23,335 bases of DNA from a virus: positions 1 through 23,335 of the IMG/VR virus record IMGVR_UViG_3300043395_000572; one strand, 5' to 3'. The notes under the pieces are model-generated. The model did no database searches and was not told the origin of the DNA. It saw nothing but the letters and a program-made list of their open reading frames with translations. The stretch's first letter is position 1; the number at the start of each line of letters is the position of its first letter. The position numbers and the translations under genes are program-made. Below, piece by piece: positions 2,189 through 22,247 of the stretch.

Positions 2189-3859
2189 ATGACACAAGCA
2201 AGACTTAACGTAGAAAAGCTTCGGTACTTCGATCTCACCGATGAAGAAGTTACGGCGAACATCACAAGCGTAGACTGGGGTTATCCGGCCGGCGACATCC
2301 GTCGATATGGCGCTGTCTCTGGCGACGATTGTACTGTCGCTTTCAATACTGCCTGTAATCTCACTGGCAGCATCTACGTTCCTTCGGGCACGTGGACTGT
2401 AGACCCGGACGCAATCACTCTGAAATCCGATACGCGCCTGTACGGCGATGGATGGTCGAGCAAGATCGTACTCGCCTCTGCAGGTAAATGTATCAAGAAC
2501 GTACACTGGGGTACGACTACGGCACAAGATTCGAACATCATCATTGAGAACTTGATGATCGATGGCGGAGACTTCTCGTCTACCGCTGTACCGACGATCG
2601 CTCTGAAGTACGTTAAGAACTGTCTTATTAAGAATGTTCTCATTAAGGACGCTGCTACCCAAGCAATCCTTGTAGCAGGTCTTCTGGATACTAGCGTTCA
2701 TTATCCATCTGAGTACGTAACGGTTGAGAACTGTCGCGTAGATGGTACGAATGGTACCGGTATCACATTCTTTGGCGAATGTAAGTACTGCAAGAGTATC
2801 GGGAACGTGGTTATTAACCACGAAGACGATGCCTTCGCATTCGACGCAGAGACCTCTACTGCATGTTATGGGAACTCCAGCATCGGAGATACCACGTACA
2901 ACGGCCTTGAGAATGATCCTGCAGCTGGCGGACGTGGTCTTGAACTCGGCGGTCAACGTCAGTTCACCTGTACTGGATTCAGCACGCGTACTCTCGCAAG
3001 CAGTGGTATTGTACTTGAGTACGGCACTGGCGGTTCTACCGCATGCGATAACGTAGTAATCAGCGGGTTCAACATCTATGGCGCTGGTACTCTTGATACT
3101 GACGCTGACTCGATTGGATACGGGATTAACATCGGCCGTGTAAGCGGTTTGATGCTGACCTCTGGACAAGTGATTGGGTCGCAAGATAACGGTGTACATG
3201 TTGCAAGTACCGCTGCAAAGGTTGTGATCTCTGACGTCATCGCTGCCAGCAATGGTGGCCATGGTATTAACGTAACGGCAAATGGTACCTCTGTATCCGA
3301 CTGCCGATGCTACTCTAATACTACCCACGGCATCATCATTAACAACGCCGACTACTGCCAAGTATATGATAACGTTTGCTTCGACAACGGATCTGACGGT
3401 ATTCGTGGTGCTGACTCAGATTACATTGTGATCTCTGGGAACCACTGCTACGATAGCGGTGCTGCTACTCAGGACAATGGAATCTATATCTCGAACTGTG
3501 ACCGGTCTACTGTATCTTGGAATACCGCTCACGGGAACGTAACCGATCAGATCGTGCCGCAGAACTTCGGCCCGTCTACCGACTCTACGTACATCACGAT
3601 GTGTGGGAACGTCCGCGATCTCGGCGCGAGCTTGAAGGGATCGGCAACGATCTCGAGCGGCCAGTCGAACGTAACCGTTACTAACGCTAACGTTACTCTT
3701 GGATCGGTTATCACAATCACCCCGACGAATGCAACCATGGCTGCCGCAGTGGCTGCTGCTAACGGGATGTATGTAACTAAGGTTAACAAGACGTCGTTCA
3801 CTTGTACTGTAACTTCTGCCCTTGGAGCAGATGGCACGTTCGATTATGTAATAATGTAA
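2189..3859 (+). CDS. Tail spike with right-handed beta-helix (pectate lyase-like fold)
   Basis: A 556-residue protein. Residues about 36-100 match the opening of the pectate-lyase-3 / spike type: GDIRRYGAVSGDDCTVAF, then IYVPSGTW and LYGDGWSSKIV. From about 110 to 470 it is a ladder of short turns of the form NCLIKNVLIKD, NCRVDGTNGTG, GHGINV, HGIIINNADYCQVYDN and NGIYISNC, the repeat pattern of a parallel beta-helix. The last 75 residues form a separate module (GSATISSGQSNVTVTN to FDYVIM) of a kind found at many phage fibre ends, probably for trimerisation or attachment. Such spikes usually bind or cut capsular or O-antigen polysaccharide. The catalytic residues cannot be assigned by eye because they vary between spikes. 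The N-terminus is short, so a separate virion-anchoring part may be minimal. The Shine-Dalgarno site is weak, suggesting coupling to the upstream gene. Confidence 0.82.
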   Translation: MTQARLNVEKLRYFDLTDEEVTANITSVDWGYPAGDIRRYGAVSGDDCTVAFNTACNLTGSIYVPSGTWTVDPDAITLKSDTRLYGDGWSSKIVLASAGKCIKNVHWGTTTAQDSNIIIENLMIDGGDFSSTAVPTIALKYVKNCLIKNVLIKDAATQAILVAGLLDTSVHYPSEYVTVENCRVDGTNGTGITFFGECKYCKSIGNVVINHEDDAFAFDAETSTACYGNSSIGDTTYNGLENDPAAGGRGLELGGQRQFTCTGFSTRTLASSGIVLEYGTGGSTACDNVVISGFNIYGAGTLDTDADSIGYGINIGRVSGLMLTSGQVIGSQDNGVHVASTAAKVVISDVIAASNGGHGINVTANGTSVSDCRCYSNTTHGIIINNADYCQVYDNVCFDNGSDGIRGADSDYIVISGNHCYDSGAATQDNGIYISNCDRSTVSWNTAHGNVTDQIVPQNFGPSTDSTYITMCGNVRDLGASLKGSATISSGQSNVTVTNANVTLGSVITITPTNATMAAAVAAANGMYVTKVNKTSFTCTVTSALGADGTFDYVIM

Positions 3860-8258: not shown

Positions 8259-9022
8259 CTGGCGACAACCAGAACACCGGGGACACCGGTACTACGAACC
8301 AAGCTAAGTTCGGATCTGACCAAGGTACAACTCAAGGCGGTTCGTTTAGCTCAGAGGACATCGCACGTATCGTGAAGCAGAATGCTTTTGCACAGGACCA
8401 CATCAAGACTCTAGAGTCTGAGACGGCCGCTATGCGGGCAGAACTTCAACGTGCACAAGAAGAACTCGCGAAAGCGCGTTCGATTGATGATCTTCTTGAC
8501 GCTATGCGGCAACAAGAATCTAATCAGCCTGGGACGACATCCCCGCAGATAGATCAACAAGAGCTGCTCAATAAGCTGAAGACTGAAGTCTTCTCGGAAC
8601 TGACTGCTGCGCAACAGCAAGCGGCTGAGATGCAGAACTGGAACACGTCCATCGGGATGCTCAAAGAGCGTCACGGTGATGGGTTCGCGGTGTATGTGGA
8701 CCAGCGTGCTGCCGAGCTCGGCATCCCTGTAACTAAGCTCGAGGAGCTCGCTAAGACCTCCCCGAACGCGTTCATGGAACTGGTTAGTCCGAACAAGACT
8801 AGGACTGCAGCACCAACCACGGGCTCGCAATACGTGCCGGCTAATGCCGATGCGGAGACGGAAGCTTATTTCACAAAGATTAGCACCCTTCGATTCCGGA
8901 ATACTCCGGAAGGTAACGATGCTAAGCGTGTGTGGGCTGATCCTGATTTCCAATCTCGGTACAGGATGCATATCCTGGAGAAGGCAAAGAAAAGCGGGTC
9001 TACCTTCGGTAACACAATATAG
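8255..9022 (+). CDS. Capsid scaffolding protein
   Basis: A 255-residue protein with a disordered Gly/Thr/Asn/Gln-rich N-terminus (about residues 1-30), a coiled coil (about 47-75, TLESETAAMRAELQRAQEEL), a Gln-rich central helix and a basic C-terminus (YRMHILEKAKKSGSTFG). This build and its position directly between portal and coat genes are typical of podovirus scaffolds, which guide coat assembly and leave before or during DNA packaging. The positively charged C-terminal helix would be the coat-binding part by analogy with T7 and P22 scaffolds. No protease motif is visible, so release without cleavage is likely. A GAGGAA site at about 8245-8250 precedes the ATG, which overlaps the upstream stop (ATGA). 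Confidence 0.87.
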   Translation: MTGDNQNTGDTGTTNQAKFGSDQGTTQGGSFSSEDIARIVKQNAFAQDHIKTLESETAAMRAELQRAQEELAKARSIDDLLDAMRQQESNQPGTTSPQIDQQELLNKLKTEVFSELTAAQQQAAEMQNWNTSIGMLKERHGDGFAVYVDQRAAELGIPVTKLEELAKTSPNAFMELVSPNKTRTAAPTTGSQYVPANADAETEAYFTKISTLRFRNTPEGNDAKRVWADPDFQSRYRMHILEKAKKSGSTFGNTI

Positions 9023-9032
9023 GATATAAACC

Positions 9033-10001
9033 ATGGCACTTGATAGCACATGGGGTAATAACCATTTTCATCGCAACGAAATCTTCAACACCCAGTTGAA
9101 GGAAGTTCTGCGCGATGATGTGTTCGCTGAGCAGTGGGTTAACTATATCGGCGATTTCACCGACGGAGCGAACTACAAGATCAACTCTGTTGGCGAACTC
9201 ACGATTGACCAAATGGCTGAAGCAACTAGCCTGCCGGATCGTCGTCCTGACTCGGGTCAGTTCGTATTTAACATCAACGAATTCGTTGGCGTTAAGACGG
9301 CTTTCACCGACGTCTTCCTGGAAGACGACTTCATGGCCCCGCAAGTTCTCAGCACACTGCCGGATCGCATGAACCGTGCATTCCAAGAATATATGGAAAC
9401 GCGCGTTCTGCATCTGCAAGCTGAACAAACGGCTAACAACTCCAACACGATTAACGGCGCTTACCACCGCTTCACGGCGAATGGCTCGAGCCGCGTAATC
9501 ACCATCCAAGACCTCGCTTACGTGAACTATGTTCTGAAGAAGGCTAACGCAGGCAACACCGCAATCGTCGGTATCGTTGACCCGTCGTTCGAATTCAACA
9601 CGAACATCAGCTCGCAAGTAGTTACATCGGAGAACCCGATGTACCAAGGTATCATCAACACTGGTATCGGAAGTGGCTACCGCTTCATCCGTAACATCTA
9701 CGGTGTTGACCTGTATACCTCGAACTACCTCGACGTCCTGACCTCGGCTGAATCGTCTCTGACGGACTACCAAGGCAACACGACGGCGGGCGCAGTAAGC
9801 GATGTCGTTAACGTTTTCTTCTCGGCCTCGGACCGCCAGAATCTGCCGTTCATCGGTGCATGGCGTCGCCGTCCCACGATTAAGTCGTGGCGGGATGAAG
9901 ACAAAGAGACTGAATACCACCAGATGTCGGCACGTTTCGGCCTTGCGCTGTACCGTCCGGAGAACCTGGTGTGCATGGTCTCGTCGACCACCCTTAGCTA
10001 A
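9033..10001 (+). CDS. Major capsid protein
   Basis: A 322-residue coat protein following the scaffold gene. It starts with a helical N-arm region (NHFHRNEIFNTQLKEVLRDD), has a long central helix (ALSTLPDRM-like LSTLPDRMNRAFQEYMETRV, about residues 109-128), and strands around IVGIVDPSFEF and GVDLYTSNYLD, in keeping with the HK97-type fold of podovirus coats. Length is normal. The codons are strongly selected: no AGA, AGG, ATA, CTA, TTA or TCA, as expected for the most abundant virion protein. AGGA at 9021-9024 lies eight bases before the ATG. No protease or cleavage signal is seen. Assignment combines gene order, length and codon bias with family-like sequence. Confidence 0.92.
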   Translation: MALDSTWGNNHFHRNEIFNTQLKEVLRDDVFAEQWVNYIGDFTDGANYKINSVGELTIDQMAEATSLPDRRPDSGQFVFNINEFVGVKTAFTDVFLEDDFMAPQVLSTLPDRMNRAFQEYMETRVLHLQAEQTANNSNTINGAYHRFTANGSSRVITIQDLAYVNYVLKKANAGNTAIVGIVDPSFEFNTNISSQVVTSENPMYQGIINTGIGSGYRFIRNIYGVDLYTSNYLDVLTSAESSLTDYQGNTTAGAVSDVVNVFFSASDRQNLPFIGAWRRRPTIKSWRDEDKETEYHQMSARFGLALYRPENLVCMVSSTTLS

Positions 10002-10002
10002 T

Positions 10003-10008
10003 AGGAGG
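10003..10008 (+). promoter_or_regulatory. Strong Shine-Dalgarno site AGGAGG
   Basis: A full AGGAGG just after the coat stop codon, five bases before the ATG at 10014. It is the strongest correctly spaced site in the window and predicts high expression of the following gene. Confidence 0.75.
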
Positions 10009-10013
10009 CTATT

Positions 10014-10580
10014 ATGACGCGTGCAACTACGTGGACTAATAACGATGGCCTCAGCGTTGGCTACGGTCGTCGGACTTCGCGAAACAAGAACGCTGGCACT
10101 GTTCGTACCCAAGGGAACGAAGAGATGCTCGTCATGGAAATCAACTATGCCGCGATGCCTCTGGCTTCGGGCACGGCTCGTATTTCCAAGGACACGGCGA
10201 TTCCTGCAGGTTCGTACATCACTAAAGCAACCCTGAACGTCCTCTCGACGTTTGCAGATGCTGACGCTAACCCGACGATGACTATTGGTCTCGTTAACAG
10301 CGCCGGCACGGCAATCGACGTAGACGGTCTGTTCGCAGGTCTGACGGAAGCGTCGGGCCAGCTCACGGCTCCTCAAGTAGTTGAGGGTGACGTAGCTACG
10401 TACGGCGGTGCTCTGGTGAACGGTGTGGACCACATCGGTTCGTCTGATGGCTACATCAACGTAGACCTCGACACGGGCGCTTGGGACTCTGGCCTGGCTC
10501 AGCTGACGGTATGGTACCTGAAGCCGACCCCGGACAGCACTCCGACTGAACCGGTCGACTCCATCGTAGGTTCGCTGTAA
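10014..10580 (+). CDS. Probable capsid decoration or minor head protein
   Basis: A 188-residue soluble protein, beta-rich in its centre (YITKATLNVLSTFADAD, PTMTIGLVNSAGTAIDV, YINVDLDTGAWDSGLAQLTV) with a Pro/Thr/Asp-rich tail. It directly follows the coat gene, has the best ribosome binding site in the window, and shares the coat gene's codon choice (no AGA, AGG, CTA, TTA or TCA). Similar small genes behind coat genes in podoviruses are found in virions, often as surface decoration. The final strand LTVWYLKPTPD is a common ending of such proteins. It ends with a double stop TAATAG, followed by a structured hairpin. A tail or neck role is less likely but not excluded. Confidence 0.68.
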   Translation: MTRATTWTNNDGLSVGYGRRTSRNKNAGTVRTQGNEEMLVMEINYAAMPLASGTARISKDTAIPAGSYITKATLNVLSTFADADANPTMTIGLVNSAGTAIDVDGLFAGLTEASGQLTAPQVVEGDVATYGGALVNGVDHIGSSDGYINVDLDTGAWDSGLAQLTVWYLKPTPDSTPTEPVDSIVGSL

Positions 10581-10589
10581 TAGCGAACT

Positions 10590-10650
10590 AATGGTCAAAC
10601 GGGGGTCGCAGCTCAGCTGCCTCGGACTCTAGGGTCGGCCCCCGACCATT
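10590..10650 (+). terminator. GC-rich structured hairpin behind capsid genes, candidate terminator or RNA-processing element
   Basis: The only intergenic gap of note. AATGGT (10590-10595) pairs with ACCATT (10645-10650), and CGGGGG (10600-10605) pairs with CCCCCG (10639-10644), leaving a CAAA bulge on the 5' side. Inside sits a perfect small hairpin GCAGC-TCA-GCTGC (10608-10620). A competing hairpin GGTCGG-CCC-CCGACC (10633-10647) uses the 3' arm of the long stem. There is no U-run after it, so a classical intrinsic terminator is not shown. T7 places its late terminator at the same point after the capsid gene. A barrier that lowers transcription into the tail genes, or an mRNA-stabilising 3' structure, would fit. 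Confidence 0.55.
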
Positions 10651-11162: not shown

Positions 11163-11987
11163 ATGGCACGGAATAGGATGTCTCTTCTTCAGATCGTCCA
11201 GCGTACTCTGGATGCTATGAACCACGACAGTGTGAATAGTATCTCGGATACTATCGAGTCCAGACAGATCGCGGAAGAAGCTCGAGTAGTGTACTACGAG
11301 CTCATGGATCGTGAAGATTGGCCTCATTTGATGAAGCTGATCACGCTTGAGCCGACCGAAGATATCGATCATCCGAATTACTTGGTCATTCCCGAAGATG
11401 TAGTACGTATTGATGAGATCAAATATGAGACGACGACGACGGACGACACCCGTCGACAGTTCAGGACTGTTATGTATCTTGATCCTAACGATTTCCTCGA
11501 TCATGTCTATCTGCGTAATACAGATGATACTAACATAGATGAGATAGAAGATTACGGCGGCACGGTGCTATTCATTCTGAATGATATCGCCCCGACGTAC
11601 TGGACTACGTTCGATGACGAACATATCGTGTTCGACTCGTACGACTCTGATATCTCTGATACTCTTCTGCAAGATAAGTCTTCGGTGTTGGCTAAGTACA
11701 TCCCGCCGTGGACTAGTGCTGATTCCTTCATCCCGGACATGCCAGACCAGATGTTCAGCACGTACGTGGCAGAGGTAACTGCCTCCGCATTCACGTATTG
11801 GAAGCAAGGACAATCGATTAAAGATGAACAACGCGCTGCACGTGGGATCTCCCGCCTTAGAAAGGATGCCCGTAAGATCAGCGCAACAAGGAGCAAAGTA
11901 AATTATGGAAGACCAGGACCTTACAATTATGTCCGAAGCGAAGATGGAACAAGAGGAAGTATTCGAGACTCCCTCGCAAGATACTGA
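11163..11987 (+). CDS. Tail tubular protein A (gp11-like head-tail adaptor)
   Basis: A 274-residue protein with the pattern of T7 gp11-like adaptors: an N-terminal helical part (SLLQIVQRTLDAMN, then SISDTIESRQIAEEARVVYY), a strand-rich middle with a YLVIPEDVVRIDEIKYE stretch (about residues 77-93), and a C-terminal helical part ending in a basic RLRKDARKISATRSK tail. These proteins form a twelve-fold ring below the portal and carry the nozzle. The downstream nozzle genes support this. Start ATG is two bases after the previous stop. Its last 83 bases are shared with the next gene in another frame. Confidence 0.86.
   Translation: MARNRMSLLQIVQRTLDAMNHDSVNSISDTIESRQIAEEARVVYYELMDREDWPHLMKLITLEPTEDIDHPNYLVIPEDVVRIDEIKYETTTTDDTRRQFRTVMYLDPNDFLDHVYLRNTDDTNIDEIEDYGGTVLFILNDIAPTYWTTFDDEHIVFDSYDSDISDTLLQDKSSVLAKYIPPWTSADSFIPDMPDQMFSTYVAEVTASAFTYWKQGQSIKDEQRAARGISRLRKDARKISATRSKVNYGRPGPYNYVRSEDGTRGSIRDSLARY
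11888..11893 (+). promoter_or_regulatory. AAGGAG site deciding an overlapping start
   Basis: AAGGAG lies eleven bases before the ATG at 11905, within the adaptor gene. It favours that start over a later in-frame ATG at 11929, which has no comparable site. Confidence 0.5.
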
Positions 11988-12378
11988 GATTCCGTTGGAG
12001 GATCAATATGATTTTCTTCCCCAAGAAGAAGCGGCCCCCGATAATGCGCCCAAAAAACAAGAAGAAGTAACATTCCGTGAGCCCACGGAAGAAGAGCTCC
12101 CGCGCGAGCGCGTAGCTCGTAGTGATTCCGGATTCATTGGCCAGAACTTCTTTGGCGAAGGCGATGATTGGGTGGCTACTGTGGTAGGGACTTCCCCCAC
12201 TGGGAATTCTCTTCAAGTAACTAAGAAGCAGGATGGTGTAGGCTATCAACTCAATTGGAGGGACGGCGGCAGTATGCCGGCACACCTTACTGGTTGGTAC
12301 ACCACATTCGATAAGGCTGAAGTAGCGGCTCGGGTGCATCTCCATGAGCTTTGGGAAAAGGCTCGTAAGGCAGGCTAA
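11905..12378 (+). CDS. Unknown acidic two-part protein overlapping the tail adaptor gene
   Basis: A 157-residue protein that I do not recognise. Residues 1-70 are very acidic, Glu/Pro/Gln-rich and probably disordered. Residues about 74-157 look like a small folded domain with strands (DWVATVVGTSPTGNSLQVTK, GVGYQLNWRDGG) followed by a C-terminal helix (KAEVAARVHLHELWEKARK). It starts 83 bases inside the adaptor gene in a different frame, supported by AAGGAG at 11888-11893, and ends just before the nozzle gene. The overlap is long for this tightly packed genome, where other overlaps are 1-8 bases. Position suggests a virion or tail-assembly accessory. An internal ATG at 11929 remains an alternative start. 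Confidence 0.7.
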   Translation: MEDQDLTIMSEAKMEQEEVFETPSQDTEIPLEDQYDFLPQEEAAPDNAPKKQEEVTFREPTEEELPRERVARSDSGFIGQNFFGEGDDWVATVVGTSPTGNSLQVTKKQDGVGYQLNWRDGGSMPAHLTGWYTTFDKAEVAARVHLHELWEKARKAG

Positions 12379-12380
12379 TT

Positions 12381-13055
12381 ATGCCGCGACAGGCAACACG
12401 AAAGAATGTAGTAACGTTAGCGGGCGGTCTCAATACAGAGGCTAGCCCGCTTACTTATCCTGAGAACTCAGCGAAGGATCTGCTAAATATAGATCTGAAT
12501 CGCGACGGTAGTGCTCGGCGTAGACGCGGGTTAGAATATGAAGTGGGGTACGAGTACTCCGACGAGGAGTTCGATCCTACGCTATTGGCCGAATCCGCTG
12601 TTACTGTGCATGAGTGGCAATCTGTTCAGGGCGATGATAGCCTGAACTTTCTTGTTATTCAGATAGGGCACTATTTGTACTTCCATAATCTTGGAAACGA
12701 TTCAGTATCCTCATCTTATCTTGGAAAGATAGATCTAACTCCTATTAGGATAGGGGATGCTGTAGATCATACTGCGCCTATCAGTGCAGCTGCTGGAAAG
12801 GGTAAGCTGTTCATTGTAAGCAGAGGGATTTCTCCGGCATACATTTCGTACGATAAAGATACTCAATCCTTTACCGGTGTGAAGCTAACGCTGAAGGTTC
12901 GGGACATTGATGGTATTCCAGAAGATGATGAATCCCCGCCGGTATTTGGGGATGACGTTACCCCGCCAGCTGCTCTTGATCCTGCTGATAACGTGTACGA
13001 TGTTCCGTTCCCGCTCGAGATCCCTGACTTCAGTAACTGGTTCCCTAGGATTTAA
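12381..13055 (+). CDS. Tail tubular protein B (gp12-like nozzle), N-terminal part of a split gene
   Basis: A 224-residue protein. It opens with a segment typical of gp12-like nozzle proteins: LAGGLNTEASPLTYPEN (about residues 13-29) and NIDLNRDGSARRRRGLEYE (about 36-54). It continues through strands with LFIVSRGISPAYISYDKDT and the LKVRDIDGI motif (about 170-178), then passes into an acidic, Pro-rich stretch (SPPVFGDDVTPPAALDPADN) and stops. Complete nozzle proteins are usually around 800 residues, and here the rest is in the next frame, two bases downstream. The two products sum to 794 residues. They probably fold together as one nozzle subunit. A recent disruption is less likely, because both parts look intact and the second has its own start. 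Confidence 0.82.
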   Translation: MPRQATRKNVVTLAGGLNTEASPLTYPENSAKDLLNIDLNRDGSARRRRGLEYEVGYEYSDEEFDPTLLAESAVTVHEWQSVQGDDSLNFLVIQIGHYLYFHNLGNDSVSSSYLGKIDLTPIRIGDAVDHTAPISAAAGKGKLFIVSRGISPAYISYDKDTQSFTGVKLTLKVRDIDGIPEDDESPPVFGDDVTPPAALDPADNVYDVPFPLEIPDFSNWFPRI

Positions 13056-13057
13056 TA

Positions 13058-14770
13058 ATGGCAGTTGATACCAGACCTACTACTTTAACGGCCGCGCATA
13101 ACTATAATCTTCGCAATCAAGGGTGGCCTACTAGATGCTCGCTTCCTAATAAGATTGATGGTGACGACGGTCTGTTTGAAGGCGACCCTGTATCCTATAC
13201 GAAGACTATTAATGGGTACTATCCTTCAAATGCAGACATCATGTATTACAGCAAGATGGCTGCAGCCACTGATCCGCAAGCGCTGAATGTGTACTCTCCG
13301 TGGGAACTCAGGAAGCAGATCTTTGGTAACACGCCTGCCGCTAAAGGGCATTTTATTCTTCCGTACTTCGACAAGAATCGGCAATTGGCGGCCAATATTT
13401 CCAGCATCTACGATCCAACTAGAGATCAGATAGATGAGCGCCCTATATCCGTAGCCTTCATGACAGGTAGGGTTTGGTACTTGATGCCTTTCGGCGAACT
13501 TCTGTACTCTCAAGTGCTGACTGAAGTATCTCGCTGTGATAAGTGCTATCAAGAAGCTGACCCAACTGCTGAAGATATCAATGAGCTTGTGGCCACAGAT
13601 GGCGGCACGCTTGATATCACCGGTATAGGTAAGGCGCAAAAGCTGGTTGTAGTAGGAAACACTATGGTGATCCTGGCCGACAACGGCGTGTGGGGAGTAT
13701 CTGGGTCTGGGGACGAAAGTTTCTCTGCAGTCTCTCAAGAGATCAGGAAGATCACTAGTGTAGGTTGTATAGGGCTAGAGAGCGCGATCGAAGTAGAGAA
13801 CTCCTTGTTCTTCTGGTCTCAAGGCGGCATATATGTGCTAGTCCAGGATCAGGTAACTGGATACTTGACTGCACAAAACATCACTGATACTACTATTCTA
13901 TCGTATTATCTCGATATAACTCCTATCGCTAGGGCGAATGCTCGGGCCTTCTACGACGAAGAAAGCAAGAAGATCTTCTGGTTCTATAATAGCGACCCGG
14001 AATTCGACGGGGTGAACTGGCGGTACAAGTTCGACAAGGCGCTGATCTTCGATATCGTACTAAAGACTTTCTACCCGTACAGTATGGATGCTAGTGCTGG
14101 ACTCCCGTTCATCTCTGCTGCTGCACAGAAGAAGGCTAATAGCTTTGAGAGTGTGGTTGAGAACATCTATGACGCTGATGTCCTTGTAACAGATAGCGCA
14201 GTAACCGTGACTCAGACTATCACCACCGCTGTCACAGCAGAAGTCAAGATCAAACTCCTTACGTTCTTAGAGCAGGCTAACTCGAACTACAAGTACACAT
14301 TCTCTGAGTACAAGAACGATGTTCCGTACGATTGGCAAGAAGAGACAGGCGGTGAGAACTACGAGTCTTATATAGAAATGGGGTACGATCTTTCTGGCGA
14401 TCTGATTTCTGAGAAAGAAACAAATACTATCTATGCATTCTTTAAACGTACTGAGACTGAAACAGTACTGGATGAAAACAACGAATTAACTTTTGACTAC
14501 CCCTCTAGCTGCTACATGCGTGCTAAGTGGGACTGGACTGACTCTGCAGATTCAGGTAGGTGGTCAGAATCTCAACAGATCTACAGACTTAATAGGCATT
14601 GGATCCCCACTGGGATCGGCCCGTTCGAGTACGGTACTGATGTGGTACAGACCATCAATCAGGTCCGTGGTAAAGGGCATGCTGTAAGTCTGAGATTCGA
14701 ATCAGAAGAAGGGAAAGACTTCCACCTCCTTGGTTGGGCTATCCCTTACAGCATTATGGTGGGAGCATAA
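13058..14770 (+). CDS. Tail tubular protein B (gp12-like nozzle), main part of a split gene
   Basis: A 570-residue protein carrying the body of the nozzle that closes the tail and binds fibres. Near the N-terminus is RPTTLTAAHNYNLRNQGWP (residues 6-24), which in complete gp12-like proteins follows the RDxxG motif seen at the end of the upstream part. Later come QKLVVVGNTMVILADNGVWG, SLFFWSQGGIYVL, ARANARAFYDEESKKIFWFY and KALIFDIVLKTFYPYS, matching the beta-propeller-like core of this family. The ATG is two bases after the upstream stop, with AGGA at 13047-13050, so termination-reinitiation is expected. This frame is open only from 13049 and no slippery heptamer is visible, which argues against programmed frameshifting. 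Confidence 0.84.
   Translation: MAVDTRPTTLTAAHNYNLRNQGWPTRCSLPNKIDGDDGLFEGDPVSYTKTINGYYPSNADIMYYSKMAAATDPQALNVYSPWELRKQIFGNTPAAKGHFILPYFDKNRQLAANISSIYDPTRDQIDERPISVAFMTGRVWYLMPFGELLYSQVLTEVSRCDKCYQEADPTAEDINELVATDGGTLDITGIGKAQKLVVVGNTMVILADNGVWGVSGSGDESFSAVSQEIRKITSVGCIGLESAIEVENSLFFWSQGGIYVLVQDQVTGYLTAQNITDTTILSYYLDITPIARANARAFYDEESKKIFWFYNSDPEFDGVNWRYKFDKALIFDIVLKTFYPYSMDASAGLPFISAAAQKKANSFESVVENIYDADVLVTDSAVTVTQTITTAVTAEVKIKLLTFLEQANSNYKYTFSEYKNDVPYDWQEETGGENYESYIEMGYDLSGDLISEKETNTIYAFFKRTETETVLDENNELTFDYPSSCYMRAKWDWTDSADSGRWSESQQIYRLNRHWIPTGIGPFEYGTDVVQTINQVRGKGHAVSLRFESEEGKDFHLLGWAIPYSIMVGA
14758..14765 (+). promoter_or_regulatory. GGTGGGAG site deciding the gp14-like start
   Basis: The site spans the end of the nozzle gene, six bases before the ATG at 14772. 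It favours that start over an in-frame ATG at 14730 that lies inside the nozzle gene. Confidence 0.5.
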
Positions 14771-14771
14771 A

Positions 14772-15317
14772 ATGGTTTTAGAAACTGCACTAGCGATAGC
14801 GGCAATTGTAACAGCTGTGGCTGGTACAGCTGCCTCGATGCAGGCCCAAGCAAAAACTAATGAGGCTCAAGAGAAAGCCCGCAAAATGCAGAATGCTGGG
14901 GCTCGAATTGAAGCGATGCATAGAGCAAGGCGGGCTGTGGCTGAACGTAGAATGATGCAAGCTGAGCTACAGCAAATGGGGGAGACACAAGGCGCCCGCT
15001 CTAGTTCAGCTATTACTGGCGCAGCCGGATCTCTTTCTACCCAAACTGCTGCTAATATTGGCTTTATGAATACGCAGGTCGCTACAGACTGGGGCATTAA
15101 TACTGCACTTACTCGTGGAGCACGGAGCGCAGCCCGATGGGATACTGTGTCAGGCGCGTTCAATGTAGCTAACTCTGTGGTGACTAGTCCTCAATTCGGT
15201 AATTGGGCTAGTAAGAACTTCCAAGGGACTGCTACTGGGCGTTTGGCAACGCCTCAAGAACAGTATAACTGGCGCGTTAATGGGACTCTTCCTCAAGGTG
15301 TAAATCCGAATGGTTAA
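14772..15317 (+). CDS. Small internal virion protein (gp14-like)
   Basis: A 181-residue protein with the build of T7 gp14-type ejection proteins: a hydrophobic, Ala-rich N-terminal segment (ALAIAAIVTAVAGTAAS, residues 6-22), then a Gln/Ala/Arg-rich helix (AQAKTNEAQEKARKMQNAGA, about 25-44; MHRARRAVAERRMMQAELQQ, about 49-68), then a Ser/Gly/Ala-rich part (SSSAITGAAGSLSTQTAANI). In T7 this protein is ejected first and inserts in the outer membrane. I chose ATG 14772 over the in-frame ATG at 14730, because the latter would sit inside the nozzle gene and add an unrelated leader. It overlaps the next gene by eight bases. Confidence 0.8.
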   Translation: MVLETALAIAAIVTAVAGTAASMQAQAKTNEAQEKARKMQNAGARIEAMHRARRAVAERRMMQAELQQMGETQGARSSSAITGAAGSLSTQTAANIGFMNTQVATDWGINTALTRGARSAARWDTVSGAFNVANSVVTSPQFGNWASKNFQGTATGRLATPQEQYNWRVNGTLPQGVNPNG

Positions 15318-18300
15318 AGAACCGTTTGATATTTCAGTTGATGATTTCAGCTGGATCTCCGGCGAGATCAAGCCTGTCGTACCTAAGACAGAACTTGATC
15401 GTCGCCAGTTTCTTACGTCCGTTGCAGCCGGTCCTGAGACTGGGCAGACTGTGCGCGCTGAACTTGAAACATCTAGTACTTCTCCTACCCAAGATAGACT
15501 GAATGCTTTGTTTAAAGAGCAGCAGACAGTTCAGGTACGTCAACAATTAGAATCGATCATAGCGGATCCTAACATTCCTAAGCAGGAAAAGATTCAACAG
15601 GTTCAAGCTGCGCAATCGGCAATAGATTCTCCATTGTTTGAAGAATCTGTTATCGATCGTGCAAAGCGAAACCTCACTGCGCTTAATAATATAGATTCTG
15701 TAAGCGATCTGCAAGCGCAGGACGCACTCGTAGATCATTACCACGAGCTGGCTAAAGTCGATGCAGCTATCAACGAAGCTGCTAATACGCTCACTTGGAA
15801 CACAGATAAGATCGGTCTTCCGGTCGATGTTACTATCGGAATACTAGCTCCTTGGTACGATCAGAATATTAAAGATGTTCTGAATGAAGTTGTTCCCGGG
15901 TTTGTTACTACAACTGGGAGGCTGCCTTGGCCTCTGTCTGATGGCGCTGGCGATCTTAAGGTTCGTTGGAAAGCGCATCTCGATTCACTCTCGCCTGAAG
16001 AAAAGGTACTAACAGTTCGTAGGCTTGCTGAAGCTATTGAGAATAACCCAGTATTTGGGAATGACAATGGCTATACCAAGATGGTCTTGTGGCAAGAACT
16101 GGTGCAAGATATCGATTCGGCGTCTGCTCATAGGGTGTCTGATAACATTTTCGGATCTCTTGATTACATAGGTCTTGGCATAATTAAGGGCGCCGGTATA
16201 CTTGGAGCTAAGGCTCTGCGTCGCGTTATGCTTGGCAAGAAGGTTACGGATACCATTGCCACTGAAAAGGTGGTGGCAACGGTTACTGGCCACGAGAAGG
16301 TGGTGCATGAACTCAAGACTTCTCTCGAAAAGAAATTAGATAAGGCTCTTAATAATACTCTAGAGAATAAACCGGTCGGATCTACAGCATCTGTTATAGA
16401 GCAAGTAGCTCCTACAACGGCTAGAGAGATTCAAATAGGGGCGCTTCAGGATACTACTGGTGAGACTGCTAAGAGTATTGGCGCCACTAATCCGCAAATA
16501 GCAAACGACGGACTACTTCCTAATCCGCCCAATACTAACCCCGGGATAACTCCTAGTCTGCATAGTCTTAATGACACTATGGTGGACTTAGATCCGGGTC
16601 GACAGTTCTTTACCGAAGCCGAAATAAGGGGCGCGGAGGGCACGCTGAATGAGCGGCTCGAATCTCTGGCTTCCGTTAGTCCTAACATCCATCTTCATAA
16701 GATGGAGACTGACATAATCCCCGGCGGATATAGGGCGAACTATCATATTTATGATACGCCTAGCAGCGGTTTCACGTCTCAAAAGATGGCGATGGATACT
16801 GCTAAAACCTTTAAAGAATTCTCTGATACAAGCACTGAATTGATGGTGCGGAACTATACAGATGATGAGTTCGTTCCACTTTCACAAGCTAAGAAGGAAG
16901 GCTGGTTTGATCCTAAGCGTAAGAACGAGTACTCTATTCGCTTATCAGTAGAAGAGCGCTTGATGGCTAATCACGCTCTTGACGATGTTCCGATATTTAC
17001 GGGCAATAATGTTGTTGGTCGCCTTGCTGCGTGGGCAGATAAGAGCGCCACTTTTGTCTCGTGGCTTGTTAATGCCGGGAACGTAGCAACTGATCAACGT
17101 TCGGCTAAGCTAGGCGCCATGACCCGCATGCTTAAGCCGATGACTATCCTGAAGCAGGACGACCAAGCTAAAGTTATTAAGATGCTTGACGAAGGCGACA
17201 GGCAGAAAGAGTGGTGGTCAGACGTCGAGCTGCTTAATGTATGGCAGAATGAGCCGAATGCTGCAGACTTGATTGCTGGATACAAAGCTGTCTTGCACCA
17301 TAATCAAGTTGTCTACAAAGAAATCAATAAGCGAGCCAGGGCTAAACTGGCTAATGAAAACTATAAGCATGTTATTCTGCCTAAAGAAATGTTCGGCGAC
17401 AACTTCTCTCAGATGGGGAAGTACGTTGGCCGGAATGAGCTTAAGACAGTAGCTGGCGATGACTTCACTGCTAAGACTCACGTTCCCCGCGATATCCGCA
17501 GAATCTACGACGCTAATAAAAAGCAAGTACTTAATGTAGATTCTAAGATGCTTGATGATATGGCAGAAGATACTGCTAACAAATTCATTAAGCTGCATAC
17601 TCCGGTATGGATTGATAAGCAGCAGATTCGCTATATCTTTCTTAAGAACGGTGAAGGACTGAAGGTCAAGAATCTTCCTAAGTATGTAGTTAGGAACGAG
17701 CGGGGGTATATCTCGCGAGTGTATGATTCTTCGTACATCCTCCGTCAAGTCAAAGGAGGCCTTGCTGATGGGTATTACCAGCAGCGAGCATCCGCTATCA
17801 GGATGTATGCCACTAGAGGCGAAATGCTGCGCGATCTTGCGAAGCTTCATGCTGAAGAAGAGATCAAGCACGCCGCAGATCCTAAATATAAAATTAAGAA
17901 GTATATCCCCACCGATGCTAGGGAATTGCAGGCGGACAAAGAGTACGCTAACCGTACCTCGCTAGAATACCTCCAAGATTCTGGGATGCTGTTCACTTCT
18001 AGGCGCGGCCAAGAAGTTTTCGGGATTGATGGCGCTCGTAGATTGAAAAGTATCTCCGATAGTCTTCAGCTCAGTCGGAATGTTGCAGCAAGCGCTAACA
18101 CTGTAGAGCCTCTCGTAGACAAGCTCACTAAGAATTGGGAACTGAAGTACGGTAAGAAGTTCAGCACTAATGGCAAGATGCCGTGGCGAGAGCAAGACCT
18201 CACTAGAGTGACTAGCGATATCCGGAAGACCGCCGATTTCGGCGAAGCACTAGCTTTGCAACGCCACATCAAACTTCTTGCCGGCGTAGACGATTCTGCC

Positions 18301-20211
18301 GTCACGCATGCGTTCCGTAATTTCATGATTAATTTTTCCGAGCACTTGAGCACTCGGTGGGATAACGCCTTCGTTAATAAAATAGCCGAAGGTCTGGTCA
18401 ATCATCGACGTAAGAATCCCATTAATGGTGTTAAGGGTGCGGCATTCACTCACTTCATTATCTTTAATCCGATACGTCAGCTTGTTATGCAGGCGCAGCA
18501 GATGTCGATGTATCTCGGTATTGAGGGGGCAATGAAGTACTTCCTTACTAAAGGCATCCCTGAGTACGGCGCATTAATGCACGGGAATGTATGGCGACAT
18601 ACTAAAATGTGGGATGAAGTTAAGCATGTCGGCGCTAAGATGGCTGGCATGGATGTAAAAGAGTACGAGAAATTCATTGATGCGTACAAGAAGACTGGAC
18701 TTCCGGATTCTATCGATCATCATATGTACTCCGTGATGACGAATGTAGAGCGTAGTCATTTGGGATCTCCAACTGCGCTCGGGCTTAATCCGTGGATAGA
18801 CAAGCCTCTAACTGTATGGAGAAATGTCAAGCGCGTGGCTCGTCGTATCGGCTTTGATGCTGGCGAACAGTCTCAGTTGATGGCTGGGTACTTAGCTGCG
18901 CGCAATCGCTGGATGATTCGTAATCCTAAGATTGCTCACCTGTGGGCAGAGGATGATAATCTTCTGAAGATAGCCGGCGATGCTCGCGCGATCTCGCTGA
19001 ACATGAATGAATCAGGCATGTTGCAATCTCAAAAAGGATTGCTTGGCATGATCATGCAGTTCATGAGCCACGCGACTAAGTCCTTCCAAGTTCTGATCCC
19101 TAACACCACTAAAGCAGGATCTCTTGCCGGTCTTTCTAAGTTCTCGAATAAAGCTTTCTCTAACCAAGAGAAGGCCGCTATCTTTGCAAACCAGATGGTA
19201 CTGTACGGTGTCGGTGCATTCGGATTGAACCAGATGTACGAATCGTTTGTTGCGAACCTCGGCATCGAGGTACCGCCTGAAGTGAACTCTAAGATTGAAG
19301 AAGGCCTTATTGGTACTCTGATCAATCTATCGTTCGCTGCAATGGGGGATGAAGATCCGGGAGAACTTAGCACAGATCTAGACGTATCTTCTTCTATCGC
19401 GCCGTTCTCGGGTATTGGCGGCAGAAGCCAGATTGTTGGCATGGGTAACCCATTAGGGTGGCTTATTAACGCTATGTTCATACAGGACATGACGTTAGCT
19501 GAAGCAGTTGGTCCTGCAACGCTGATGATTGAACGTGCTGATAAGGCAATCTCTTTTGCAGCAACTGTCGCTGGCGCAGTGCCGGATCCTGAGATTGGCA
19601 CTGATGCATTCATGGCTATTCTTAACGAGACTGGTAAGCAAATGCTTCCGATCTTTAATAACTTCATGCAAGCTAGGATTGAAGATACTGTTGATAGACA
19701 TATCACGGCTAGTGGTAATCTTGGTACTGAAGTTACGGATGGGGAGACTTGGGCCCGCGCTATCCTAGGATTCAATACTAAGCGGCAACGCGAAGTAAGC
19801 ACTGATCTGATGGAAGTTCGAGGTCTTATGGGCAATCCGAAGAAAGAAGGATTGAAGTCTGAATTGAATGAGGTAGCTGATGATTGGTATAAATTCGCAC
19901 TCTATCAAGCAGTTCAGATTGCAGACGGTAAAGAAGACTTTAAAGCTAGGCACCGTGACCTAAAAAATATCGGTACTATATTGAAGGCATCTCTCGGGGA
20001 AGATGAATACCGGTACGTTATGAATCGTGTACGCGATAAGTACACTTCCCTTGAAAGCGGTGGCCCAGAAAATGAACTGTATCGGAATCTTCTTAGGATA
20101 GGCGGAGACATCCCCTCTATTCTAGACCCATCATTTGCTACCGAAATAAATAACCAACCTAATTTTAAGCACAAGGATAGAATCCTTCAATGGCTTGAGG
20201 ATATTAAATAA
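15310..20211 (+). CDS. Giant internal virion (DNA-ejection) protein
   Basis: A 1633-residue, largely helical protein, the largest in the window. It lies in the position of T7 gp15/gp16. A glycine-rich hydrophobic segment occurs at about residues 281-305 (FGSLDYIGLGIIKGAGILGA). Residues about 385-435 are a Thr/Pro/Asn-rich linker. In the last third are FIIFNPIRQLVMQAQQM (about 1049-1065) and MIMQFMSHATKSFQVLIP (about 1247-1264), motifs I associate with large internal virion proteins of T7-like and marine podoviruses. No lytic transglycosylase motif is recognised, unlike T7 gp16, so peptidoglycan cutting may be done elsewhere. A start at 15310 has AAGGTG nine bases upstream. It is predicted to be packed in the head and to form part of the conduit through the envelope. 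Confidence 0.8.
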   Translation: MVKEPFDISVDDFSWISGEIKPVVPKTELDRRQFLTSVAAGPETGQTVRAELETSSTSPTQDRLNALFKEQQTVQVRQQLESIIADPNIPKQEKIQQVQAAQSAIDSPLFEESVIDRAKRNLTALNNIDSVSDLQAQDALVDHYHELAKVDAAINEAANTLTWNTDKIGLPVDVTIGILAPWYDQNIKDVLNEVVPGFVTTTGRLPWPLSDGAGDLKVRWKAHLDSLSPEEKVLTVRRLAEAIENNPVFGNDNGYTKMVLWQELVQDIDSASAHRVSDNIFGSLDYIGLGIIKGAGILGAKALRRVMLGKKVTDTIATEKVVATVTGHEKVVHELKTSLEKKLDKALNNTLENKPVGSTASVIEQVAPTTAREIQIGALQDTTGETAKSIGATNPQIANDGLLPNPPNTNPGITPSLHSLNDTMVDLDPGRQFFTEAEIRGAEGTLNERLESLASVSPNIHLHKMETDIIPGGYRANYHIYDTPSSGFTSQKMAMDTAKTFKEFSDTSTELMVRNYTDDEFVPLSQAKKEGWFDPKRKNEYSIRLSVEERLMANHALDDVPIFTGNNVVGRLAAWADKSATFVSWLVNAGNVATDQRSAKLGAMTRMLKPMTILKQDDQAKVIKMLDEGDRQKEWWSDVELLNVWQNEPNAADLIAGYKAVLHHNQVVYKEINKRARAKLANENYKHVILPKEMFGDNFSQMGKYVGRNELKTVAGDDFTAKTHVPRDIRRIYDANKKQVLNVDSKMLDDMAEDTANKFIKLHTPVWIDKQQIRYIFLKNGEGLKVKNLPKYVVRNERGYISRVYDSSYILRQVKGGLADGYYQQRASAIRMYATRGEMLRDLAKLHAEEEIKHAADPKYKIKKYIPTDARELQADKEYANRTSLEYLQDSGMLFTSRRGQEVFGIDGARRLKSISDSLQLSRNVAASANTVEPLVDKLTKNWELKYGKKFSTNGKMPWREQDLTRVTSDIRKTADFGEALALQRHIKLLAGVDDSAVTHAFRNFMINFSEHLSTRWDNAFVNKIAEGLVNHRRKNPINGVKGAAFTHFIIFNPIRQLVMQAQQMSMYLGIEGAMKYFLTKGIPEYGALMHGNVWRHTKMWDEVKHVGAKMAGMDVKEYEKFIDAYKKTGLPDSIDHHMYSVMTNVERSHLGSPTALGLNPWIDKPLTVWRNVKRVARRIGFDAGEQSQLMAGYLAARNRWMIRNPKIAHLWAEDDNLLKIAGDARAISLNMNESGMLQSQKGLLGMIMQFMSHATKSFQVLIPNTTKAGSLAGLSKFSNKAFSNQEKAAIFANQMVLYGVGAFGLNQMYESFVANLGIEVPPEVNSKIEEGLIGTLINLSFAAMGDEDPGELSTDLDVSSSIAPFSGIGGRSQIVGMGNPLGWLINAMFIQDMTLAEAVGPATLMIERADKAISFAATVAGAVPDPEIGTDAFMAILNETGKQMLPIFNNFMQARIEDTVDRHITASGNLGTEVTDGETWARAILGFNTKRQREVSTDLMEVRGLMGNPKKEGLKSELNEVADDWYKFALYQAVQIADGKEDFKARHRDLKNIGTILKASLGEDEYRYVMNRVRDKYTSLESGGPENELYRNLLRIGGDIPSILDPSFATEINNQPNFKHKDRILQWLEDIK

Positions 20212-22247
20212 TGGCACCGCCTCGCGACTTAAGGGTAATGGCCCAAGACATCCAAGCACCGCAACTGAATCCATATCTCGGGATGTATCAAAGCGGAGCA
20301 GGCACTGACTTAACAAGGGGAGCGGCTGGAGTAGCTGCCGATCTTAATAATTTTGCTGTGCAGGATGCCCGTCAAGCTGCGGCCGATGAGTCTGCCCGCC
20401 GGTGGAATCAAGAACAACTTGATAGGCAGAGCCGCGGCGTAGGTACTGCTATTGCTGTTGATCAAATGATTCAACTCGGTATGCAACAGGCGGAAGCTAC
20501 TGTAGCTGATCAGCTAGCTGCGGCAGAAGAAGATGCAGCAGCTGCAAGGGCAGGTAGGGTTGCTAATAAGATCAGACTATCAGAGATGCAGAATCCTAAT
20601 TCTACAGCTGCAGTCCTCCAGAAGGGGGCGCAACTGCGTCGTCTGATAGCGCAAGATCCAATGAATGCTGACATCATTATGTCGCAATTCAACGCATCTT
20701 CCGGTAAGGGGATCCTTGAGCAACTGCAAGGTATTGTCTCTAGTCCGGAAGAGCAGCGTCAAAAAATTCTGGAAGAGTACCGCAAAGATGGAAGGCAGCA
20801 GGGGCTTGTTCCAGAAGCTATGTCTGATGGGGAATTGATTGCCCGAGTATCAGCAAACAATTCTCGCATTCTTGCTGGTAAGATTGCAGAAGCTGACACG
20901 CAGCAATTAAGAAAACAAGATCTGCTATCTGAGCGAGATTTTGTAACTAACACTAGAACGGCTATCGCTCCTGGGAAAGCAACAGCTCTCCAAGGATTTA
21001 TGGTGGGACTTATTGGCAGGTACGGGGCAATGCCGGAGAACATGACTCCGGAGCAAAGAACCTCTGCCCTGATGGAATTCGATACTCAAGTGCAGAATGA
21101 TCTGCAGTCTATGCGCGAATCTCAGCCGCCTACTGTTAGTAAAGAAAAGTTCGAGAATGCTATCGCTACATACCGAGAAACTGTAGCTATGCAAAGAGAC
21201 TACCTGAGCGGCAAGGTAAGTAAAGAGCAGTACGAAGTCGGAAAAAGCCTGACTGAGTCTAAGGCGTACCGACAAGTACACGAGACTTACCCGTGGTTAG
21301 CAGACGCAGAAGCCAGGCAAGCCGCCATCAATCTTGTTGGTGACCAGGCTACTAAAGACGGCTTGAGTGCAGATCTAGCTAATAAAGTAGAACCTCTTTA
21401 TGCGCTTATGATCGCGGAACAAGACGGCACAGTTACTGCTGACATCATACGTCGGGATCTTAACACGGCGGAGACGCCACAAGAAAAGTTAGAAGTAGTT
21501 AAGAACTACAAAGACTCCCTTAGTATTCTGGCTAATGGTGCTAACACTACTCCAGACCAGTACCTTGGCGTTATCTCCCAGTTGTGGAGGGATTACAAAC
21601 CTGGCTCCGGGAACCCCGAATACACTAGGATGTTGGATAGCATGATAGAGACAATGGCTAGGCCTGAGTCGCTGCGGCTGATCTCTGCTGGTAAGAACCA
21701 GGATAAGTTCATAGGAGTGCAAGAGGGGCTGAATGCGCACCTTGAGGACCTCTCTAGGTATGTGCAGACTCAAGTCCGCGATAAGTTGAATGAACTCCAA
21801 ATGGTTAACCCGGGCTTCACTGACCCTGTAACAGGCGAACCCACAAGACTCACTGACTTTGTTCAGAGTATGGATGCCTGGTTGGAACCGCAATACCAGG
21901 AGAATGGCGCTGTCAGGTACACAGTTAAGGATACAGTACCGGAGCAGTACAGGAATGCTGCCCGAGAAGCAGCTAGTGCGGCCAATAAGGTAGGCTCCAG
22001 GCTTCCTGATATCATTGCTATCGAAGAAGCCCTCGGGAATACTCGACTTGGGGACCAAGTAATTCCTAAATCTGAAGTTGCCAGGGAGTTCATGGAGAGT
22101 GGGCGGTGGCCATTATCTAATCAGGCTGGGCGCGAACGGATACGCGAACGTTTGACTGGAAAGACTCCAGAACAGCAACGTGCAGCAGAGCGGCCTAGTC
22201 AATTCAATCTTCCTGACTTCAAGTTCACATTCCTGAATGATGTATAA
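20211..22247 (+). CDS. Internal virion protein, helical, gp15-like candidate
   Basis: A 678-residue, almost entirely helical protein rich in Ala, Gln, Glu and Arg. The N-terminus (APQLNPYLGMYQSGAGTDLT, residues 15-34) is followed by long helices such as EATVADQLAAAEEDAAAARA. It ends with a short aromatic tail (FNLPDFKFTFLNDV). No membrane segment, signal peptide or enzyme motif is seen. Size and composition fit the T7 gp15-type middle ejection protein that lines the periplasmic conduit, and it is encoded directly after the giant internal protein. The ATG overlaps the upstream stop (TAATG), with GAGGAT at 20197-20202 as ribosome binding site. Direct family identification is not possible by eye, so the role rests on context and fold type. 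Confidence 0.72.
   Translation: MAPPRDLRVMAQDIQAPQLNPYLGMYQSGAGTDLTRGAAGVAADLNNFAVQDARQAAADESARRWNQEQLDRQSRGVGTAIAVDQMIQLGMQQAEATVADQLAAAEEDAAAARAGRVANKIRLSEMQNPNSTAAVLQKGAQLRRLIAQDPMNADIIMSQFNASSGKGILEQLQGIVSSPEEQRQKILEEYRKDGRQQGLVPEAMSDGELIARVSANNSRILAGKIAEADTQQLRKQDLLSERDFVTNTRTAIAPGKATALQGFMVGLIGRYGAMPENMTPEQRTSALMEFDTQVQNDLQSMRESQPPTVSKEKFENAIATYRETVAMQRDYLSGKVSKEQYEVGKSLTESKAYRQVHETYPWLADAEARQAAINLVGDQATKDGLSADLANKVEPLYALMIAEQDGTVTADIIRRDLNTAETPQEKLEVVKNYKDSLSILANGANTTPDQYLGVISQLWRDYKPGSGNPEYTRMLDSMIETMARPESLRLISAGKNQDKFIGVQEGLNAHLEDLSRYVQTQVRDKLNELQMVNPGFTDPVTGEPTRLTDFVQSMDAWLEPQYQENGAVRYTVKDTVPEQYRNAAREAASAANKVGSRLPDIIAIEEALGNTRLGDQVIPKSEVAREFMESGRWPLSNQAGRERIRERLTGKTPEQQRAAERPSQFNLPDFKFTFLNDV

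Follow-up and report, generated by a model that had tools for sequence, protein, structure and literature searches.

Can the tail nozzle of a podophage be encoded by two genes? In the virion the podophage nozzle is a hexamer that lies below the adaptor and retains the phage DNA under pressure. The window (the whole stretch of DNA that was analysed, a viral record 23,335 bases long) carries two adjacent open reading frames that each resemble a part of a nozzle protein, and we asked whether they represent a single gene broken by an error, a gene read through by a change of frame, or a nozzle that is divided in the phage itself. The features that bear on this question are as follows.

11163-11987, plus strand: tail protein (phrog_7592, E 8e-75), a neighbour expected of a nozzle gene
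12381-13055, plus strand: ORF1, nozzle chain 1 gene, 224 aa
12381-12914, plus strand: body of chain 1, residues 1-178, ending with the G of RDIDG (phrog_8094 1-179); N-terminal part plus two propeller blades of four strands each
12915-13052, plus strand: acidic, Pro-rich tail (46 codons) added at the C-terminus of chain 1, from clade conservation and codon pattern
13047-13050, plus strand: AGGA, Shine-Dalgarno-like, for chain 2, inside the 3' end of the chain 1 gene
13053-13060, plus strand: junction TAATAATG, made up of the chain 1 stop, two bases and the chain 2 start codon
13058-14770, plus strand: ORF2, nozzle chain 2 gene, 570 aa (phrog_8094 189-761 of 769, E 5.6e-126)
13073-13126, plus strand: RPTTLTAAHNYNLRNQGW motif directly past the break, aligned with intact relatives
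15310-20211: internal virion protein (phrog_12003), 1633 aa, downstream

A first-pass annotation of this DNA had described two genes of 224 and 570 residues, two nucleotides apart and in different frames, and these coordinates and lengths are correct. Its reading of the pair as one nozzle of normal length is borne out by the PHROGs tail appendage profile phrog_8094 (tubeB, gp12/gp10-like; 769 positions), which is shared out between the two chains, ORF1 matching 1-179 and ORF2 189-761, so that jointly they span it end to end. At least 80% of chain 2 was matched in one place in 99 of 116 matching phage records, and the record labels place 18 of the 19 phage records that we fetched in the Zobellviridae, the other having no family name. 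The neighbourhood is that of a nozzle gene, with a tail adaptor-like gene upstream and the internal virion protein gene downstream, and a similar gene order is found in single-chain records of the nozzle family. Pfam returned nothing for ORF1 or ORF2, no match was obtained when phage records were searched at the DNA level, and single-sequence searches of the PDB gave chance rows only; an alignment-profile search of the PDB found the tail tubular protein B of cyanophage A4 (9k09, E 9e-14). Directly ahead of the nozzle pair is a gene of 157 aa (11905-12378) that overlaps the 3' end of the tail protein gene. It was tried as a marker of the divided phages and rejected: its homologues occur in 9/9 loci of the clade described below, in 2/7 of the sister group and in 0/16 other loci, so it is no clean marker.

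The fold of the protein shows where the break lies. In the chain 1 model, residues 61-170 form two four-stranded blades (strands 74-118 and 135-168). Foldseek found nothing at E <=0.001 with chain 1 alone; the best row (0.0081) was a phage portal-tail complex and those below it were mostly other beta-propellers. A model of an intact relative, L033 (pLDDT 89), was more informative: its VIA-align search has phage tail or nozzle chains in every one of the first 30 ranks, those of T7 and P22 included, with Z 16.1-27.0, while the next row scores 14.1. Judged by its modelled fold, a propeller with a platform, L033 is a nozzle. This intact relative of the window nozzle matches in fold T7 gp12, P22 gp10, the SU10 nozzle and the A4 tail tubular protein B, all of which are listed as single molecules, whereas the window has two genes. 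The window's break point, which we call site A, corresponds in L033 to residues 175-193; these have no secondary structure in the model and form a loop leading from a propeller blade into a helical stretch; blade structure resumes with a strand at residue 304. The suggestion that the break falls in a loop fits this model. In T7 a loop of blade 3 runs outwards to the tip domain of the nozzle (PMC6702177). The order of strands in the model suggests that the site A loop would occupy the place of that loop.

Is the division an accident of assembly or sequencing? The first-pass annotation had named a sequencing error near 13049-13057 as the finding that would overturn its reading, and in principle the two frames could be merged by a minor local shift. 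We examined relatives from two scans of viral contigs, one by alignment with the best 80 matches kept and one by an alignment of the clade (26 loci), which gave at least 93 loci (L026-L118) besides a second contig of the window's own phage; division was tested with separate N- and C-terminal profiles against stop-to-stop frames. Most relatives are intact, as the error explanation would have it: among the 93 listed loci 79 have one open frame, nine are divided at the window's site and five end at a contig edge, four of the five still having an unbroken N/C boundary. The same split is therefore present in nine other viral-contig loci (L026-L032, L044 and L116 among the matches listed), which represent six further phages, the contig pairs L026/L027, L030/L031 and L044/L116 differing by 1, 0 and 3 mismatches, respectively. 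The second contig, IMGVR_UViG_3300049846_000516, shares 21,248 bases with the window; the single mismatch, at 21479, is far from the nozzle locus, which is identical in the two. Because the second contig is identical there and relatives with only 47-71% identity are divided alike, an assembly or sequencing error is very unlikely indeed, to the point that we give it almost no weight. The six further phages argue strongly against it, since they share the division and have other letters at the junction; moreover, the 46-codon tail of chain 1, which is missing from most intact relatives, would persist even if the frames were one. On the sequence comparison, division at the same site in nine other loci (six further phages) is more than chance.

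The divided loci also belong together. The nine are the nearest to the window by identity among the matches listed (47-71%); the next full-length locus among them, L033, has 40% identity and a single chain, and L118, a locus cut by a contig end, has 41% over 65 residues with its boundary unbroken. In a tree of 85 rows, eight site A rows fall on one side of a branch with an SH-aLRT support of 97, adjoined by seven single-chain rows. This tree is from a quick search with SH-aLRT and no bootstrap as its support, and it excludes near-copies more than 80% identical, L014, L031, L116 and the five cut loci. As far as these sequences and this tree go, site A division is common to one clade. One scan with the clade alignment, using two peptide patterns only, found no relative in bacterial or archaeal genome contigs, and for that reason no host is assigned.

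The first-pass annotation had held that a nozzle of this type is normally one chain. This stands for 79 of the 93 listed viral-contig loci; the rule has exceptions in Melvirus, in VpV262 and in other phages whose nozzle genes are broken elsewhere. It had placed the start of ORF2 four residues ahead of the conserved motif, and here the count needs correcting: there are five (MAVDT), and RPTTL starts at residue 6.

The junction itself speaks to how chain 2 is made. Its forms over the seven phages fall into the classes TAATG, TGATG and TAA-N1/2-ATG: TAATAATG in the window, TAAGAATG in L026, TAATG in L028, L030 and L032, TGATG in L029 and TAACATG in L044. These letters vary while the position of the chain 2 start codon, ahead of the RPTTL motif or its equivalent, is kept in all seven. 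Such forms suit stop-and-restart translation. Chain 2 is in the -1 frame relative to ORF1 in six of the seven phages, with an overlap of 7-100 nt between the open frames; these features would be expected if a programmed frameshift, or a bypass, yielded some fused nozzle in addition to chain 1. The seventh phage, L044, has another frame relation (+1). In the window the ORF2 frame is open only from 13049 and the overlap is just 7 nt. A scan of -1 sites found an in-phase slippery heptamer in none of the seven phages, the two heptamers of L026 being out of phase, and Rfam gave no match at its gathering score in 12281-14900. A bypass would have no need for a conserved tail on chain 1, and the conservation of the chain 2 start codon also argues against a frameshift. 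We consider this explanation highly improbable. The earlier statement that no slippery site is visible and that the second frame has its own AGGA and ATG thus holds, at least for -1 heptamers, and the AGGA (13047-13050) sits 7 nt 5' of the ATG at 13058. Matches of this Shine-Dalgarno-like kind before chain 2 have four bases in L028 and L032 and only three in L026, L029, L030 and L044. No terminator-like site was found in 12301-13400, and the promoter-like sites there show no excess over shuffles, both being on the minus strand. A clade-wide division in which the position of the second ATG is kept and the letters of the junction vary is best read as stop and restart, with two polypeptides as the products. 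Independent starting of chain 2 fits best, probably with the help of re-initiation.

Chain 1 does not end where the nozzle profile leaves it. Beyond RDIDG there are 46 further codons, with 11 D/E, 1 K/R and 10 P, in agreement with the earlier description of an acidic Pro-rich end; most single-chain relatives have no such tail. The tails beyond RDxxG in the seven phages have 37-64 residues with 5-18 D/E and 0-2 K/R; all seven are acidic and they are often Pro-rich, that of L044 being short and with two basic residues. Elements of the type SPxVFGD, TP and DP recur in most clade tails and the distal end is variable. The window and L026 are 59% identical over the 46 codons, with changes by codon position of 16/11/33 (p 0.0013), and third positions are also the most changed in three other tail comparisons (p 0.0031, 0.022 and 0.021). 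It is because third codon positions change most in all four comparisons that we take the tail to be read in the ORF1 frame and to be under constraint. In the AlphaFold2 model of chain 1 the tail block has a pLDDT of 56-68, compared with 81-96 for residues 61-170; as an indication of disorder this is weak, since residues 1-60, which are expected to be ordered in a nozzle, score 48-75 too. The tail may be flexible and lie near the tip of the phage tail, where it could act as a display or docking element. Its variable distal end, among the sequences compared, leaves a specific partner unsupported.

An addition of this kind might also be expected if chain 1 had left the nozzle body, either as a separate protein that has kept the N-terminal fold or as one in decay, given that it has its own start and its own tail. 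Between the window and L026, however, the body of chain 1 is 73% identical and chain 2 71%, with third-position changes prevailing, and chain 2 has no N-terminal addition that would replace the missing blades. We therefore hold this explanation to be very improbable. On the sequence evidence each nozzle subunit is probably built from two chains, and both would be present in the virion.

We think it very likely that a gene fission has been fixed in one phage lineage, giving a two-chain nozzle, presumably with coupled translation, and an added tail on chain 1. The break in the nozzle gene (tubeB, gp12-like) would have fallen in the loop that joins an early propeller blade to the next element, the helical excursion, with a tail of 37-64 residues added to the upstream half and the downstream half beginning at its own ATG. 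Ribosomes that end the first gene may restart within a few bases so that both chains are made together, and the two chains would then assemble into one nozzle subunit. A nozzle that bears pressure might seem to need one unbroken chain, and a break kept by a lineage, together with comparable breaks in other members of the family, shows which of its loops tolerate being cut; such loops are possible places for display on the phage tail. For annotators it means that gene pairs of this type are not to be taken for errors.

Divided nozzle genes are already known from the records of RIO-1 and VpV262: the RIO-1 record states that gp44 matches the N-terminal portion of PA11 gp38 and gp40 its C-terminal portion, and the VpV262 record describes a similarity of ORFP to SIO1 gp27 in the C-terminal region of the latter. 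On a limited literature search, what appears to be new is a site A break kept by a lineage, a conserved added tail, and break sites that are also insertion sites; we recognised no paper on the division in this clade, which says little as most subscription journals lie outside the coverage of the search. For comparison we fetched 19 phage records, 11 divided and eight not, chosen partly for looking divided so that these numbers are not a frequency. Breaks were placed at site A (the N/C boundary before the helical excursion), site B (after the excursion) or site C (before the last ~95 residues).

The Pseudoalteromonas phages RIO-1 (gp44 / gp40) and HP1 (gp18 / gp16), of Melvirus, resemble the window in that each half of the nozzle has its own gene, and the first half has a Gly/Pro-rich tail containing acidic residues that recalls chain 1. 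Their break is at site B whereas that of the window is at site A, so the window lies outside the Melvirus type of divided nozzle, and the Melvirus nozzles form a separate group from the window clade in the tree (support 99). They also have one gene (HP1 and PQ867853) or three genes (RIO-1) between the halves, where the window has none. The intervening regions of three Melvirus records (L017 2436-3473, L018 2436-2978 and L022 492-2443) differ in number and size of genes, and from their sequences the position looks as if it were a cargo slot. HP1 ORF 17 is described as a structural protein and proposed as a host-range factor (PMC5498523); HP1 gp17, which lies between the halves, appears to be this ORF, the two being matched by number only.

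Vibrio phage 1.253.O (gp16 / gp17) is broken at the same N/C boundary as the window, with an 8-nt gap, and its first half too has an acidic Pro-rich tail. Its second chain starts within an inserted domain of more than 100 residues, which chain 2 of the window does not, and it groups with single-chain Vibrio phages; its break is probably independent of that in the window clade. The nozzle of Vibrio phage VpV262 (ORFN / ORFP) likewise occupies more than one gene, but is broken near the C-terminus, at site C, with ORFO between the parts, and not at site A. Site B breaks were found in the Melvirus records and in two Vibrio phages, and site C breaks in VpV262 and 1.077.O. The first halves of Vibrio phages 275E43-1 and 172P1 have, by eye, no Pro-rich tail, and thus tails are not universal among divided first halves.

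Three of the four break sites hold inserts in some of the single-chain relatives: at site A in L013, L014 and L016 (157-162 aa) and in L048 (147 aa), at site B in L112 and L114, and at site C in L114. A candidate insert at site A in L114 was rejected, as it precedes RDFEG and is not at the break. The site A insert of L048 (2844-3305) has a sub-threshold NedA-like galactose-binding match (E 0.0004). On these alignments the break and insert loops look like permitted attachment points, and they may serve host contact. It is possible, though we would put it forward only tentatively and think it on balance unlikely, that breaks at loops of the nozzle gene are a recurrent device by which a loop becomes a free C-terminus, available for the attachment of docking peptides or adhesin-like domains. 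On this view the non-covalent hinge might also ease opening of the channel. Sites A, B and C would then be break points in some phages and insertion points in others, and L044/L116 would supply a fourth site, with a middle chain bearing a PKD/LRR-like extension.

The nozzle of L044 and L116 (3343-6745 in each) is in three pieces, with a site A break and a further one at site D (TGA TCA GTG), alike in both contigs. At the end of the middle chain is an extension of ~345 residues with sub-threshold matches of PKD and LRR type. Its assignment by eye to BspA/DUF285 was rejected: the Pfam matches are sub-threshold (PKD 0.0027, DUF285 0.043, LRR_5 0.074), NCBIfam gives 31 bits against a cut-off of 300, and the PDB row is weak (E 1.1e-4).

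Elsewhere in the window, two long open frames lie on the minus strand, one of 532 aa antisense to the capsid region (9000-10598) and one of 358 aa antisense to the tail-fibre-like gene (616-1692); both are probably a by-product of codon use. Two further products are candidate receptor-binding proteins: the tail-fibre-like protein (583-1716) and a right-handed beta-helix protein (2189-3859; Pfam Beta_helix, E 3.2e-14).
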